From positions 2,418,001 to 2,482,000 of the forward strand of contig NZ_CP095491.1 in the NCBI RefSeq assembly GCF_023028105.1: 64,000 bases of DNA, given 5' to 3'. Of this stretch, positions 5,802 to 29,479 are shown piece by piece. The translations under genes were made by a program, and so were the position numbers. A model generated the notes under the pieces. That model made no database searches. It was not told where the DNA came from and saw only the letters and a list, made by a program, of their open reading frames with translations. The first letter of the stretch is position 1, and each line of letters starts with the position of its first letter. Source of the stretch: Halosolutus gelatinilyticus. GTDB lineage: Archaea; Halobacteriota; Halobacteria; Halobacteriales; Natrialbaceae.

Positions 5802-6053
5802 CTACCGTTCGTCGACCTCCACGTCGTAGTCGTGGATGGTCGGGTTCGCGAGGAGTCGTTCCGCCATCTCGCTCGCGCGGTCGCGGGCGTCCGCGGTCGA
5901 CGCGGCGTCGAGGTCGACCTCGAACCGATCGGCCGATCGAAGGCCCTCGAGTTCGAACCCGAGACGCTTGAGCGCCTGCTTCGTGGTTTCGGCCTCGGGG
6001 TCCAGAACCCCGCGTTTGAGTCGAACCGTCACCGTCGCGGTGTACGCGGTCAT
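5802..6053 (-). CDS. purS: Phosphoribosylformylglycinamidine synthase subunit PurS
   Basis: 83 aa from the ATG at 6053 (MTAYTATVTVRLKRGVLDPE). PurS is the small subunit bridging PurQ and PurL. The family signatures VLDPEAETTKQALKRLGF and a late NPTIHDYDVEV strand are visible. An ATG at 6080 would add nine residues that the family lacks. The promoter carries a 16-bp palindrome shared with the purN-purH promoter (see 6105-6120). Confidence 0.9.
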   Translation of the reverse strand: MTAYTATVTVRLKRGVLDPEAETTKQALKRLGFELEGLRSADRFEVDLDAASTADARDRASEMAERLLANPTIHDYDVEVDER

Positions 6054-6104
6054 TACTGGAACCCCCGTATCCGTGCTCAAAAACGCTTTCGACTTCGATA
6101 CCTA

Positions 6105-6120
6105 ATACACGTTCGTGGAT
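6105..6120. promoter_or_regulatory. Candidate purine operator upstream of purS
   Basis: ATACACGTTCGTGGAT is an imperfect palindrome. It matches the perfect palindrome at 27980-27995 upstream of the purN-purH fusion in 14 of 16 positions. Its near edge is 52 bases from the purS ATG (55 in the other case), and on the minus strand its right half runs into the likely TATA region (GTGTATTAGG). A repressor or activator site is the natural reading. Confidence 0.5.
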
Positions 6121-6322
6121 ACCAGATCGAGGACGCATCCTCGATCGAGGATCGACGCGGGTCGAAAACAAGGTCGGTGGGGTGCCCGACAACGGGGACG
6201 TCTCGAAGCCGTACCTCGGCGGCTGCGGGGCCAATACCTCGGCGGCAAGGGTCGTCAGCTCGGTCGGGTTCCCGTCTCTCTCGTCGCGCCGGGCCGATCC
6301 GTTCGGTCCGGCCGACAGCCGC

Positions 6323-6991: not shown

Positions 6992-7948
6992 ATGACGACT
7001 GATCTGACCGAAATCACGGTCATCGGAGAGGACGATACGGGACTGATCGCTCGCGTCACGAGCCTCCTGTTCGAGCGCGGGATCAACATCGAGGATCTCG
7101 ATCAGGCGGTTCGCGACGGCGTCTTCCGGATGTACCTCGCCGTGGACACCTCGAAGATGGTCTGCACCGAGGAGAAGCTGCGCGCGGACCTCCACGACCT
7201 CGGGGACGACCTCGGACTCGACGTCCAGGTTCGGTTCCCGGCCGATCGGGACCACCAGCAGATCGCCGTTCTCGTGACGAAGGAGAGCCACTGCCTCGAG
7301 GTGCTGTTCGAGGCGTGGGCCAACGACGATCTCGGGGCCGACATCGGCGTCGTCATCGGCAACCACGACGACCTCCAGCCCCTCGCCGAGCACTACGGCG
7401 TCCCGTTTCACGACATCGGAAACGAAACCGGCCAGCAGAACGAGGAGCGACTCCTCGAGCTGCTCGCGGAGTACGACGCCGACCTGATCGTGCTCGCCCG
7501 CTACATGCGCATTCTCTCCCCCAAGGTCGTCTTCCGCTACGAGGACCGCATCATCAACGTCCACCCCTCGTTGCTGCCCGCCTTCCCCGGCGCCGAGGCC
7601 TACCGCCAGGCCGTCGAGGAGGGCGTCCGCGTGGCCGGCGTCACCGCCCACTACGTGACGACCGACCTCGACCAGGGACCGATCATCACCCAGCGGGCGT
7701 TCGACGTCCCCGACGACGCCGGCTTAGACGAGATGAAAGCGCGCGGCCAGCCCCTCGAAGCCGACGCGCTGCTCGAAGCGGTTCGGCTCCACCTGAACGG
7801 CGACGTCTCCGTCCACCGCGGCCGGACGACGGTCCGCGAGAACGGCACGCAGTACCAGCTCGGCCTCCCCGACGAGATCGACGAGCTCACGCCGGACCGA
7901 CCGGTCGACGGCATCGGCGCCGCGATCGCCAACGACCGATCGCAGTAG
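6992..7948 (+). CDS. purU: Formyltetrahydrofolate deformylase PurU
   Basis: 318 aa. An N-terminal ACT-type domain (about 1-85, ITVIGEDDTGLIARVTSLLF) precedes a formyltransferase domain. The Asn-His-Asp catalytic set is recognisable: IGNHDDLQPL, NVHPSLLPAFPGAEAY and TTDLDQGPII. The C-terminal EADALLEAVRLHLNGDVSVHRGRTTV block is typical of PurU rather than PurN. The reaction releases formate and THF from 10-formyl-THF and balances the one-carbon pool. A GGAGGTGG ribosome binding site lies just before the ATG. Confidence 0.85.
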   Translation: MTTDLTEITVIGEDDTGLIARVTSLLFERGINIEDLDQAVRDGVFRMYLAVDTSKMVCTEEKLRADLHDLGDDLGLDVQVRFPADRDHQQIAVLVTKESHCLEVLFEAWANDDLGADIGVVIGNHDDLQPLAEHYGVPFHDIGNETGQQNEERLLELLAEYDADLIVLARYMRILSPKVVFRYEDRIINVHPSLLPAFPGAEAYRQAVEEGVRVAGVTAHYVTTDLDQGPIITQRAFDVPDDAGLDEMKARGQPLEADALLEAVRLHLNGDVSVHRGRTTVRENGTQYQLGLPDEIDELTPDRPVDGIGAAIANDRSQ

Positions 7949-26236: not shown

Positions 26237-27925
26237 TTAGTCGTGACGGAAAGACCGCTGCCCCGTAAACGCCATCGCGATGCCGTGTTCGTTCGCGGCC
26301 GCGATCACGTCGTCGTCGTTGACCGAGCCACCGGGCTGGACGACCGCCTCGATACCCGCCTTCGCGGCCTCCTCGATGCCGTCGGGGAACGGGAAGAAGG
26401 CGTCGGAGGCCATGACGGCGCCGTCGGCGTCCTTGCCCTCGGCGTGCTCGTCGGCTTTCATCGCCGCGAGTCGGACCGCGTCCACGCGGGACACCTGTCC
26501 CATGCCGATGCCGACCGTTTCGGTGCCCGTCGCGAAGAGAATGCCGTTCGACTTGACGTGCTTGAGCGTCCGCCACGCGAACACCATCGACTCGAGTTCT
26601 TCGCCGGTGGGTTCGCGCTCCGTGACGACCTCGAGGTCGTCGACGTCGATCGACTGCAGGTCGCGCTCCTGGACGAGTCGGCCGCCGACGATCGGCTTCT
26701 CGGTGAAGCGATCGGTTCGCTCTCCCAGTTCGCCCACGTCGAGCACGCGCAGATTCTTCTTCTCGCGGAGGACGTCGAGGGCGTCGTCGGTGTAACCGGG
26801 GGCGACGACGACCTCTTTGAACGAGTCGACGATCAGTTCCGCGGTCGCGGCGTCGCACTCCCGGTTGACGGCGACGATCCCGCCGAACGCGCTCATCGGA
26901 TCGGTCGAAAGCGCCTTCTCGTAGGCCTCGGCGATCGAGTCCGCCGTCGCACAGCCCGCGGGGTTGGTGTGCTTGATGACCGCCGCGGCGGGCTCGTCGA
27001 ACTCCGTGATCAGGTTCAGCGCGCCGTCGGCGTCGTTGTAGTTGTTGTACGACAGCGCCTTCGCGCCCTCGTTCAACTGGTCGGCGTGGACGACGCTGGC
27101 CTCGTCGCAGGTGTAGTCGGCGTAGACCGCGGCGTCCTGGTGGGGGTTCTCCCCGTAGCGGAGGGTGTCGATCCGATCGCTCGAGACGAGTCGGCGGGCC
27201 GGAAGGCCGCCTCGCGGCTTCGCCGCTCGACCATCCGAGGCGCGTGGCGCCTCGCTGTCGTCGTGGTCGTCATCCTCGGTACTCGCGACGTCCGCGTCGA
27301 CGGTCACCTCGCCCGCCTCGCGATCGACGCCGACGGCGCCCTCGGCGAACCACTTTACCGCTCGTGGATACGCGCGGAACTCGCCCTCGTAGAGGACGCG
27401 CTCTTTGAGCGCCTCCGCGTCGTCACCCTCGTAGACCGGGATCGGTTCCTGGGTGACGATCGGGCCGACGTCGACTTCCGACTCGACGACCTCGCCCTCC
27501 TCGTCGGTCGCGTCGGTGACGACGTGGACCGTACAGCCCGTGACCGAGACGCCCGCCGCGAGGGCGTCGCCCCAGGCGTCCATGCCGGGGAACGACGGCA
27601 GCAGCGACGGGTGGACGTTCAGCGTCGTCGGCTGGACGTCGAGGAACGCGTCCGAGAGGATGCGCATGTAGCCGTCCAGACAGACCAGGTCGTACGCGTA
27701 GTCATCGAGCGCCGCGTTGACGGCCTCCTCGTGCTCGCGGCGGCTCATGTCCTCCCCCAGCGGGACGACCTCGGTGGGAATACCTCGCTCGGCGGCGGCC
27801 TCCAGCACCGGCGCGTCCCCGCTGTTCGTCAGCACGACGGCGAGTTCCGCCCCGCCCGGCGCTCGATCGGCGATGTTCAACAGGTTGCGCCCTCGGTTGC
27901 CGGCCATCCCGGCGATTCGCGTCAT
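26237..27925 (-). CDS. purH: PurN-PurH fusion: GAR formyltransferase plus AICAR formyltransferase
   Basis: 562 aa from the ATG at 27925 (MTRIAGMAGNRGRN). Residues 1 to about 207 are a PurN-type GAR transformylase with NVHPSLLPSFPGMDAW and the final VKWFAEGAV. A Asp/Ala/Arg-rich linker (about 208-246) leads to an AICAR transformylase domain (RIDTLRYGENPHQDAAVY, VIKHTNPAGCA, DPMSAFGGIVAVNRE, QPGGSVNDDDVIAAANEHG). The PurH N-terminal IMP cyclohydrolase domain is absent; archaea often use PurO for that step. The two steps are steps 3 and 9 of purine synthesis, both using 10-formyl-THF. Divergent from purB. Confidence 0.9.
   Translation of the reverse strand: MTRIAGMAGNRGRNLLNIADRAPGGAELAVVLTNSGDAPVLEAAAERGIPTEVVPLGEDMSRREHEEAVNAALDDYAYDLVCLDGYMRILSDAFLDVQPTTLNVHPSLLPSFPGMDAWGDALAAGVSVTGCTVHVVTDATDEEGEVVESEVDVGPIVTQEPIPVYEGDDAEALKERVLYEGEFRAYPRAVKWFAEGAVGVDREAGEVTVDADVASTEDDDHDDSEAPRASDGRAAKPRGGLPARRLVSSDRIDTLRYGENPHQDAAVYADYTCDEASVVHADQLNEGAKALSYNNYNDADGALNLITEFDEPAAAVIKHTNPAGCATADSIAEAYEKALSTDPMSAFGGIVAVNRECDAATAELIVDSFKEVVVAPGYTDDALDVLREKKNLRVLDVGELGERTDRFTEKPIVGGRLVQERDLQSIDVDDLEVVTEREPTGEELESMVFAWRTLKHVKSNGILFATGTETVGIGMGQVSRVDAVRLAAMKADEHAEGKDADGAVMASDAFFPFPDGIEEAAKAGIEAVVQPGGSVNDDDVIAAANEHGIAMAFTGQRSFRHD
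26249..26279. repeat. Direct repeat copy 2 (inside the purN-purH gene)
   Basis: Partner of 26047-26077, lying in the last codons of the purN-purH fusion. The non-coding copy is probably the derived one, left by a local duplication or an insertion event. Confidence 0.8.
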
Positions 27926-27979
27926 GCGCGGATAGCCGCCCGCAAAGGGGAAAGTGGTTGCGGTCTCGACCGCCGATAT

Positions 27980-27995
27980 ATACACGTACGTGTAT
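27980..27995. promoter_or_regulatory. Candidate purine operator at purN-purH
   Basis: ATACACGTACGTGTAT is a perfect 16-bp palindrome. It lies 55-70 bases upstream of the purN-purH ATG, and on the minus strand it runs directly into TATATAT, so it overlaps the probable BRE/TATA region. It matches the purS site (6105-6120) at 14 of 16 positions. It sits about 100 bases upstream of purB (28094), so it could serve both divergent genes. Confidence 0.55.
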
Positions 27996-28093
27996 CAATT
28001 TGGCGATATTCTCGACCACGACCGTAGAAATATGCACGCTCGTGGCTCGGTCTTTCGATAACCCTTTTGCGCCCCGCTGGAAAGAGTCGCACA

Positions 28094-29479
28094 ATGACCG
28101 AAACTGACGCCCTGTACGCCGTCTCGCCGCTAGACGGCCGCTACGCCGGCCGGACCGCGCCGCTGTCGCCGTACGCGAGCGAGGCTGCACTCATGCGCGC
28201 CCGCGTCCGCGTCGAAGTCGAGTACCTGATCGCCCTCGCGGATCTCGACGCGACGCCGCTTGCGATCGATATCGACGAACGCGAAGCCTTGCGCGGGTTG
28301 TACAAGCACTTCGCCGAGGAGGATGCCCGGCTGATAAAGAAACTGGAGACGGAGGGTCACGCCGGCTTCGACGCGACGAACCACGATGTCAAGGCCGTCG
28401 AGTACTTCGTCCGCCACCGGCTTTCCGAGGACAGTGACGCCTCGGCGTGGATCCACTTCGGACTGACCAGCGAGGACGTGAACAACCTCGCCCACCGGCT
28501 GCTCGTCCGCGACGCCGTAGACGAGGTACTCCTCCCGAAACTGTACGAGGTGCGGAAGTCCCTCGCCGACATGGCCCGCGACCACCGCGATCTCCCGATG
28601 CTCGCGCGAACGCACGGCCAACCCGCCACGCCGACGACGTTCGGCAAGGAGATGGCCGTCTACGCCGCGCGCCTCGGTCGCGCGACCGGACGCATTCGGC
28701 GGGCGACGGACGGTCTCCGCGGCAAACTCGGCGGTGCCTCCGGGACCTACGCCGCCCACGTCGCGGCCTACCCGGACGTCGACTGGCGGGCCTTCGCCGA
28801 GGACTTCGTCACCGGATTGGGCCTCGCGTTCGAGCCGCTCACGACGCAGGTCAACCCCTGCGACGACCTCGCGGCCCTGTTCGACGCGTTCCGCGGAGCC
28901 AACGACGTCCTGCTCGACCTCGACCTCGACGTGTGGCTCTACGTCTCCGATCGCTACCTCGGCCAGGAGGCCGTCGAGGGCGAAACGGGCTCGTCGACGA
29001 TGCCCCACAAGGTCAACCCGATCGACTTCGAGAACAGCGAGGGGAACCTCTCGAAGGCCAACTCCGATCTGACCTTCCTCGCCGACTACGTCACGACCTC
29101 GCGGCTCCAGCGCGACCTCTCGGATTCGACCGTCAAGCGCAACATCGGCGCGGCGTTCGCCCACTGCTTGATCGGCTACGGGAAGACCGCCACCGGCCTC
29201 GAGAAGGTCGTCCCGACCGAGGCGGTCATGCGCGAGGAACTCGAAAACACGCCCGAGATCATCGGCGAAGCCGTCCAGACTATCCTCCGACGCGAGGGCC
29301 AAGAAGACGCCTACGAGCGCGTCAAGGCCGTCACCCGCGGCCGGGAGGTTACGATCGAGGACTTTCGATCGATGTTCGACGAACTCGACGTCGACGAGGA
29401 CGTCCGCGAGGAACTGCACGCGCTCACGCCGACCGGATATACCGGCGTCGCGAGCGAGCTGGTCGACGATCTCACGTAA
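28094..29479 (+). CDS. purB: Adenylosuccinate lyase PurB
   Basis: 461 aa from the ATG at 28094. It cleaves SAICAR to AICAR and adenylosuccinate to AMP with release of fumarate. Fumarase/aspartase superfamily signatures are visible: ARTHGQPATPTTFGKEM, the flexible catalytic loop GSSTMPHKVNPIDFENSEGN, and DLSDSTVKRNIG. Length is typical. An in-frame ATG at 28067 lies further upstream. Divergent from the purN-purH fusion, sharing a 168-base promoter region. Confidence 0.93.
   Translation: MTETDALYAVSPLDGRYAGRTAPLSPYASEAALMRARVRVEVEYLIALADLDATPLAIDIDEREALRGLYKHFAEEDARLIKKLETEGHAGFDATNHDVKAVEYFVRHRLSEDSDASAWIHFGLTSEDVNNLAHRLLVRDAVDEVLLPKLYEVRKSLADMARDHRDLPMLARTHGQPATPTTFGKEMAVYAARLGRATGRIRRATDGLRGKLGGASGTYAAHVAAYPDVDWRAFAEDFVTGLGLAFEPLTTQVNPCDDLAALFDAFRGANDVLLDLDLDVWLYVSDRYLGQEAVEGETGSSTMPHKVNPIDFENSEGNLSKANSDLTFLADYVTTSRLQRDLSDSTVKRNIGAAFAHCLIGYGKTATGLEKVVPTEAVMREELENTPEIIGEAVQTILRREGQEDAYERVKAVTRGREVTIEDFRSMFDELDVDEDVREELHALTPTGYTGVASELVDDLT

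Follow-up and report, generated by a model that had tools for sequence, protein, structure and literature searches.

The 64-kb stretch of DNA analysed here (the window, G000:C1:2418001-2482000 of a 4.76-Mb haloarchaeal genome) carries two similar palindromes in front of purine genes, and this raises the question whether these promoters answer to a common regulator and, if so, which protein reads the sites. Both sequences, described in a first-pass annotation of the window, are indeed present before purS and the purN-purH fusion gene (purNH), and they are identical at 14 of 16 positions. Their distances to the genes, given there as 52 and 55, agree with the 51 (purS) and 54 (purNH) bases that we count between site and ATG, the start codons of purS, purNH and purB being located at 6053, 27925 and 28094, respectively. 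The palindrome at 27980 lies within the divergent region between purNH on the minus and purB on the plus strand. Here we identified an additional, weaker site, missed by the annotation, that is 46 bases away from the ATG of purB and 52 bp from the purNH operator. The features are as follows:

5802..6053, minus strand: purS, FGAM synthase subunit (Pfam PF02700, E 7e-25)
6078..6091 (-38 to -25), minus strand: BRE/TATA-like element of purS, CGAAAGCGTTTTTG, conserved with and without the operator
6105..6120, minus strand: putative operator of purS, ATACACGTTCGTGGAT on the plus strand, ATCCACGAACGTGTAT on the minus strand (towards purS)
26237..27925, minus strand: purN-purH fusion, GAR formyltransferase and AICAR formyltransferase (Pfam PF00551, PF01808)
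27951..27968 (about -43 to -26), minus strand: BRE/TATA-like element of purNH, GAGACCGCAACCACTTT, conserved
27980..27995, no strand assigned: putative operator of purN-purH, perfect palindrome ATACACGTACGTGTAT
28032..28047, plus strand: second putative operator, before purB, ATGCACGCTCGTGGCT
28056..28069, plus strand: putative BRE/TATA-like element of purB, CGATAACCCTTTTG, read from the sequence
28094..29479, plus strand: purB, adenylosuccinate lyase, divergent from purNH (Pfam PF00206, PF08328)

As only two sites were known initially, it had to be considered that, in a GC-rich genome such as this, AT-containing palindromes of two promoters may resemble each other by chance, the more so as the motif overlaps in sequence with common haloarchaeal coding words. 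Within the window, however, the sites at 6105 and 27980 are the only two matches with up to three mismatches, against an expectation of 0.07 from shuffling, and two or more matches arose in 1 of 100 dinucleotide shuffles. A scoring matrix trained solely on sites of other families gave the three highest scores of the window to 27980 (28.4 bits), 6105 (26.0) and 28032 (13.5). The fourth rank (13.2) is taken by a palindrome, ATCCTCGATCGAGGAT, at 6137-6152, which precedes the purS operator by about 32 bp. Also near purS is a purU-like gene (6992-7948, plus strand) with a formyltransferase domain and an ACT-like start, and in other families a formyltransferase gene is likewise found close to purS. 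PurNH shares 88% identity with its counterparts from Natronorubrum and Natrialba species, which makes it probable that the genome belongs to the Natrialbaceae.

The site consists of two half-sites ATNCACG in the consensus ATNCACG-N2-CGTGNAT. A scan of the full genome with ATACACGTACGTGTAT at up to three mismatches, the check proposed along with the annotation, yielded 10 places versus 2 for the reversed control, and five of the 10 belong to purine or one-carbon genes, namely purNH/purB, purS, folD, purL and a permease. The folD gene in question is near glyA, and the permease, of the xanthine/uracil type, adjoins hpt. With the refined motif RTRCACGTWCGTGKAT, the sole zero-mismatch places genome-wide are purS, purNH and purL, so that all three perfect matches are pur genes. 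Weaker sites precede folD, the purine permease and purF, the last (GCGCACGAACGTGCAC) at the distance seen in other families, and matrix scoring gave no site for purA, hpt or glyA of this genome. Note that the outer-base pattern ATNCANNNNNNTGNAT alone was found at 9 places versus 10 in the control, and the outer bases by themselves are thus without signal. One strong operator-like sequence, GTACACGATCGTGTAT (L008, G000:C1:3798058-3798073), has no gene start at the proper distance and remains unexplained. Between glyA and folD this genome encodes a 313-residue protein without a Pfam match (L150:7951-8892), and at two loci read elsewhere (L118, L121) glyA and folD are directly adjacent.

The comparison was then extended to 146 genomes of the order, where, of the 30 best matches that were fetched automatically, 19 precede purine or one-carbon genes (purA 5, purF, purS and folD 4 each, purD and purO 1 each), a class that makes up well below 1% of a genome; these 30 matches are not independent, as several stem from one family. 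Sixty hand-picked further matches added purNH/purB, purL, purC, AzgA-type permeases, gcvPA and 5'-nucleotidases. The names purO, purC, azgA, gcvPA and 5'-nucleotidase were assigned by reading the protein sequences by eye, without a family search. Outside the family of this genome the targets comprise purF, purA, purD, purC, purO, purS, purNH, folD, gcvPA and AzgA-type permeases, and the distance of the site is often conserved to the exact base across families, as is the case for purS and purNH. In the Natrialbaceae, both sites of the purNH/purB intergenic region are fixed, at -70 to -55 and -121 to -106 from the purNH ATG, and a degenerate purNH site is retained in Haloferax, Haladaptatus, Halorussus, Halogeometricum and Halobium; in the promoter comparison, no purNH site was seen in Haloarcula, Halosimplex, Halovenus and most relatives of Natronomonas. 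Upstream of one purF gene (L219:1324-1359), the operator ATGCACGTCCGTGGAT is present in two identical copies 20 bp apart. Some sites with at most one mismatch fall into coding or unrelated regions (a LanM-like gene, Hsp20, a small RHH-type protein, a TRAP-like binding protein), and such sites inside or before unrelated genes were treated as chance occurrences. Background frequency of the motif, or its lack of conservation, would have refuted the proposal of a purine regulon under a common regulator, and neither is observed: the perfect matches are all pur genes, the positions at purS and purNH are conserved, and the genome-wide matches and the targets in other families lend it further support. 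The comparative data thus already refute chance likeness, which we regard as virtually ruled out, and it is close to certain, even in the absence of binding data, that the sites mark a conserved haloarchaeal purine regulon. Judged from sequence, this regulon appears to front most genes of purine synthesis and import across haloarchaea.

The architecture of the promoters bears on how such a regulator might act. The annotation had placed the right half of either palindrome on the TATA region, which our alignments do not support: in both promoters the conserved BRE/TATA-like element sits downstream of the site, and a simple argument that the regulator protein blocks the TATA box is likewise unsupported. 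In 30 Natrialbaceae promoters, the information content of the purNH element reaches up to 2 bits, and the putative element of purB keeps a distance of about 25 bases to the ATG, in line with purS and purNH. At purS, 50-51 bases separate site and ATG in every genome that has the site. The mean information in the site columns is 0.60 bits with the site versus 0.23 where it was lost; for the core element the values are 0.98 and 0.78, and this element outlives the site. It fits the BRE/TATA of a leaderless transcript, the 5' ends of which have not been mapped. Upstream of BRE/TATA is the usual position of archaeal activators and downstream of TATA that of repressors. The operators at purS, purNH, purB, purL, purF, purA and purD are all located upstream of BRE/TATA. 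At purO, the site reaches the start codon (-14 to +1), and in several AzgA permease genes it is immediately 5' of the start codon and downstream of a TATA-like element, in what we infer from location to be repressor-like positions. As the placement varies among genes, activation is not certain, and the direction of control is an inference that may be gene-dependent; for the biosynthetic genes, without expression data, we consider the case for activation to be evenly balanced.

The annotation had noted that the regulator is not encoded in the window, and our best candidate, P0003, is indeed found outside, at G000:C1:576176-576883. It came up among the genome's proteins with a PRT domain and consists of 236 residues, with an N-terminal XRE/Cro-like HTH and a C-terminal purine-type phosphoribosyltransferase (PRT) domain (PF00156); we refer to the family as HTH-PRT. 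The N-terminus matches HTH_3/XRE at 18.3 bits, under the cut-off of 23. In NCBIfam, the protein is an adenine phosphoribosyltransferase (PRK08558/NF006328, 350 bits versus a cut-off of 184), and its nearest solved structure by sequence is PurR of Bacillus subtilis (E 1.6e-8; profile 4.6e-14). A fold search with the AlphaFold2 model (pLDDT 87.9) retrieved structures of APRT, XPRT and PurR over the PRT part, with PurR among the best matches. Most residues of the HTH (AxDLNRYVNGHVLP) show no variation among 29 homologues. When VLVVDDLIRSGET of P0003 is aligned to VLIIDDFMKAGGT of PurR, the DD pair and the T are kept and one G is replaced by E in most homologues, and the PRPP loop reads DDLIRSGET rather than having the usual TGGT-type end. 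The family is found in 102 of the 146 genomes and, in the control genomes, also in Haloferax volcanii.

The distribution of HTH-PRT follows that of the sites. In 122 genomes with a completeness of at least 90%, the mean number of motif matches is 2.6 with the gene and 0.85 without (Mann-Whitney U test, p 1e-6). The same trend appears within families: in one (f1), genera with HTH-PRT have 1-8 matches and a genus without the gene (g6) has 0 and 0, and in another (f6), the genus with HTH-PRT (g31) has 4, 5 and 4 versus 0-3 in the remaining genera. We also followed the purS site through a fixed set of 30 genomes, half of them with HTH-PRT: 13 of the 15 with the gene have the site, versus none of the 15 without, and the same figures (13/15 versus 0/15) hold for the purF site. 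The exceptions, G109 and G119, possess a divergent HTH-PRT (63-65% identical) and lack both sites; G119 and its congener G143 have kept a site before azgA, beside the HTH-PRT gene. Gene order provides a further link, as clusters of the order pyrE - HTH-PRT - azgA occur in two families (f12, f17), HTH-PRT adjoins azgA in a third (f4), and in many of these neighbourhoods the motif precedes the AzgA-type permease gene. Palindromes resembling CCACGNNCGTGG are found in the promoters of HTH-PRT itself in 21 of 30 genomes versus 1.9 expected, clustered at -70 to -72, and suggest autoregulation. Note that the CCACGNNCGTGG core, a variant of the operator, was selected after the promoters had been viewed, and that the site at the HTH-PRT gene of this genome is weak. 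A second conserved element, CCATACTTGNGGAATCGTGCATA, was observed before HTH-PRT (L257-L286) next to the start codon, at about -31 to -7, and is perhaps a second auto-operator.

On a tree of PurF, the presence pattern of HTH-PRT requires about four changes, two of them on well-supported branches. These are too few for a tree-based sign test of co-occurrence, of low power here, to reach significance. Once shared ancestry is taken into account, no significance can thus be claimed for the association, and a different factor that disappeared on these branches would explain the data just as well. The joint loss of gene and sites thus leaves room for a real regulon whose sites are bound by another protein, either one not yet examined or, for example, sHTH, a winged-helix protein of about 100 residues encoded divergently from purA. 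Highly conserved and a neighbour of purA in almost all of the loci read, sHTH was the candidate favoured at first. None of the 122 near-complete genomes lacks it, however, not even those without sites, where it still stands beside a site-less purA, and for this presence with or without sites it was set aside. It also has no recognised ligand domain and leaves the sites adjoining HTH-PRT unexplained. We consider binding by such another factor unlikely, without its being negligible. In this genome sHTH is located at G000:C1:3001725-3002024 on the minus strand (L245; others at L155-L184). The protein is mostly 80-100% identical across the order, and its Pfam match to CggR_N is under the cut-off.

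Known haloarchaeal regulators are still weaker contenders. GfcR shares the domain plan of HTH and PRT and was run as a negative control; it is present in site-less genomes (G087, G134, G020, G005 and others) and absent from the site-bearing G027, G043 and G049, and was rejected for this mismatch in distribution. For TrmB, weak effects on purine genes of Halobacterium were reported, but the same studies have these genes answer to a TrmB-independent factor (PMC3794607, PMC4540570), and the TrmB motif, TACT-N7/8-GAGTA, is unlike the ATNCACG-N2-CGTGNAT sites, for which TrmB was rejected in turn. Control of the promoters by either protein is highly improbable. HTH-PRT hence remains the probable regulator of the purine regulon, an assignment that rests on co-occurrence and gene order and in which binding is inferred. 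Its HTH, its gene neighbourhood and its joint occurrence with the sites argue, ahead of any enzyme assay, for a regulator rather than a salvage enzyme.

In the mechanism that we propose, a dimer of HTH-PRT would bind the palindrome via its HTH, and the pocket of the PRT domain would sense PRPP and/or purine nucleotides. In front of biosynthetic genes, the protein would occupy its site upstream of BRE/TATA in an activator-like placement, and at the genes for the AzgA permease and purO it would sit downstream of TATA, placed like a repressor. The regulon and the placement of its sites are computed results, as are the phylogenetic association with HTH-PRT and the variant sites at the HTH-PRT gene; physical binding, the ligand and the direction of control are inferred in the absence of binding or expression data. 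Sensing of PRPP or purines by HTH-PRT we judge to be somewhat favoured, the ligand being an inference. The complete proposal, that a misfiled HTH-PRT is the missing haloarchaeal purine regulator, combines a PurR-like sensor with a different DNA-binding domain, activates biosynthesis and represses permease and purO genes, is tentative and falls a little short of an even chance.

Purine genes in Halobacterium were reported to track purine levels via an unidentified factor other than TrmB, and one of the two studies could not find a PurR homologue by sequence (PMC3794607, PMC4540570). In the open-access literature searched, from which all preprints and most subscription papers were excluded, we found neither a published haloarchaeal purine regulator nor P0003 described as one, and the claim that the site was undescribed held in the same literature, where no description of the motif appeared. 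The present analysis supplies an operator, the list of its targets and one candidate gene for the purine factor reported missing in Halobacterium; with the candidate family represented in Haloferax volcanii, the gene is open to deletion there in a laboratory strain. P0003 is a member of PRK08558/NF006328, the name of which implies a salvage enzyme, and our data suggest that the whole family carrying this label may be regulators.

Among haloarchaeal systems, GfcR of Haloferax volcanii (NF045507) likewise is a transcription factor of HTH and PRT domains, known for sugar catabolism. Its PRT domain, however, is of the orotate type, its distribution is unlike that of the sites, and P0003 has no meaningful similarity to it (BLASTP E 0.96) and no listed match to NF045507. 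The TrmB regulon of Halobacterium is also metabolic and features a partly palindromic operator near BRE/TATA, but differs in operator sequence and serves gluconeogenesis. A bacterial parallel is found in PurR of B. subtilis and Lactococcus lactis (1P4A, 1O57, 7RMW), which has an N-terminal DNA-binding domain, a PRT domain and, as far as can be inferred, a purine regulon in common with HTH-PRT. HTH-PRT is about 50 residues shorter, its HTH is XRE/Cro-like where that of PurR is winged, and the homology of P0003 to PurR extends mainly over the PRT part, with a score against the PurR family TIGR01743 of 40.8 bits, far under the cut-off of 258.7. PurR recognises a pair of PurBoxes, whereas the operator here is the palindrome ATNCACG-N2-CGTGNAT in the context of archaeal promoters. 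PurR represses in Bacillus and activates in L. lactis, in both cases tuned by PRPP (PMC10912719). The scope of a TIGR01743-type regulon, with genes of purine biosynthesis, transport and one-carbon metabolism, is matched by that of the motif. Our analysis also suggests that PRT sensor domains have been joined to differing HTH types for purine control in bacteria and archaea.
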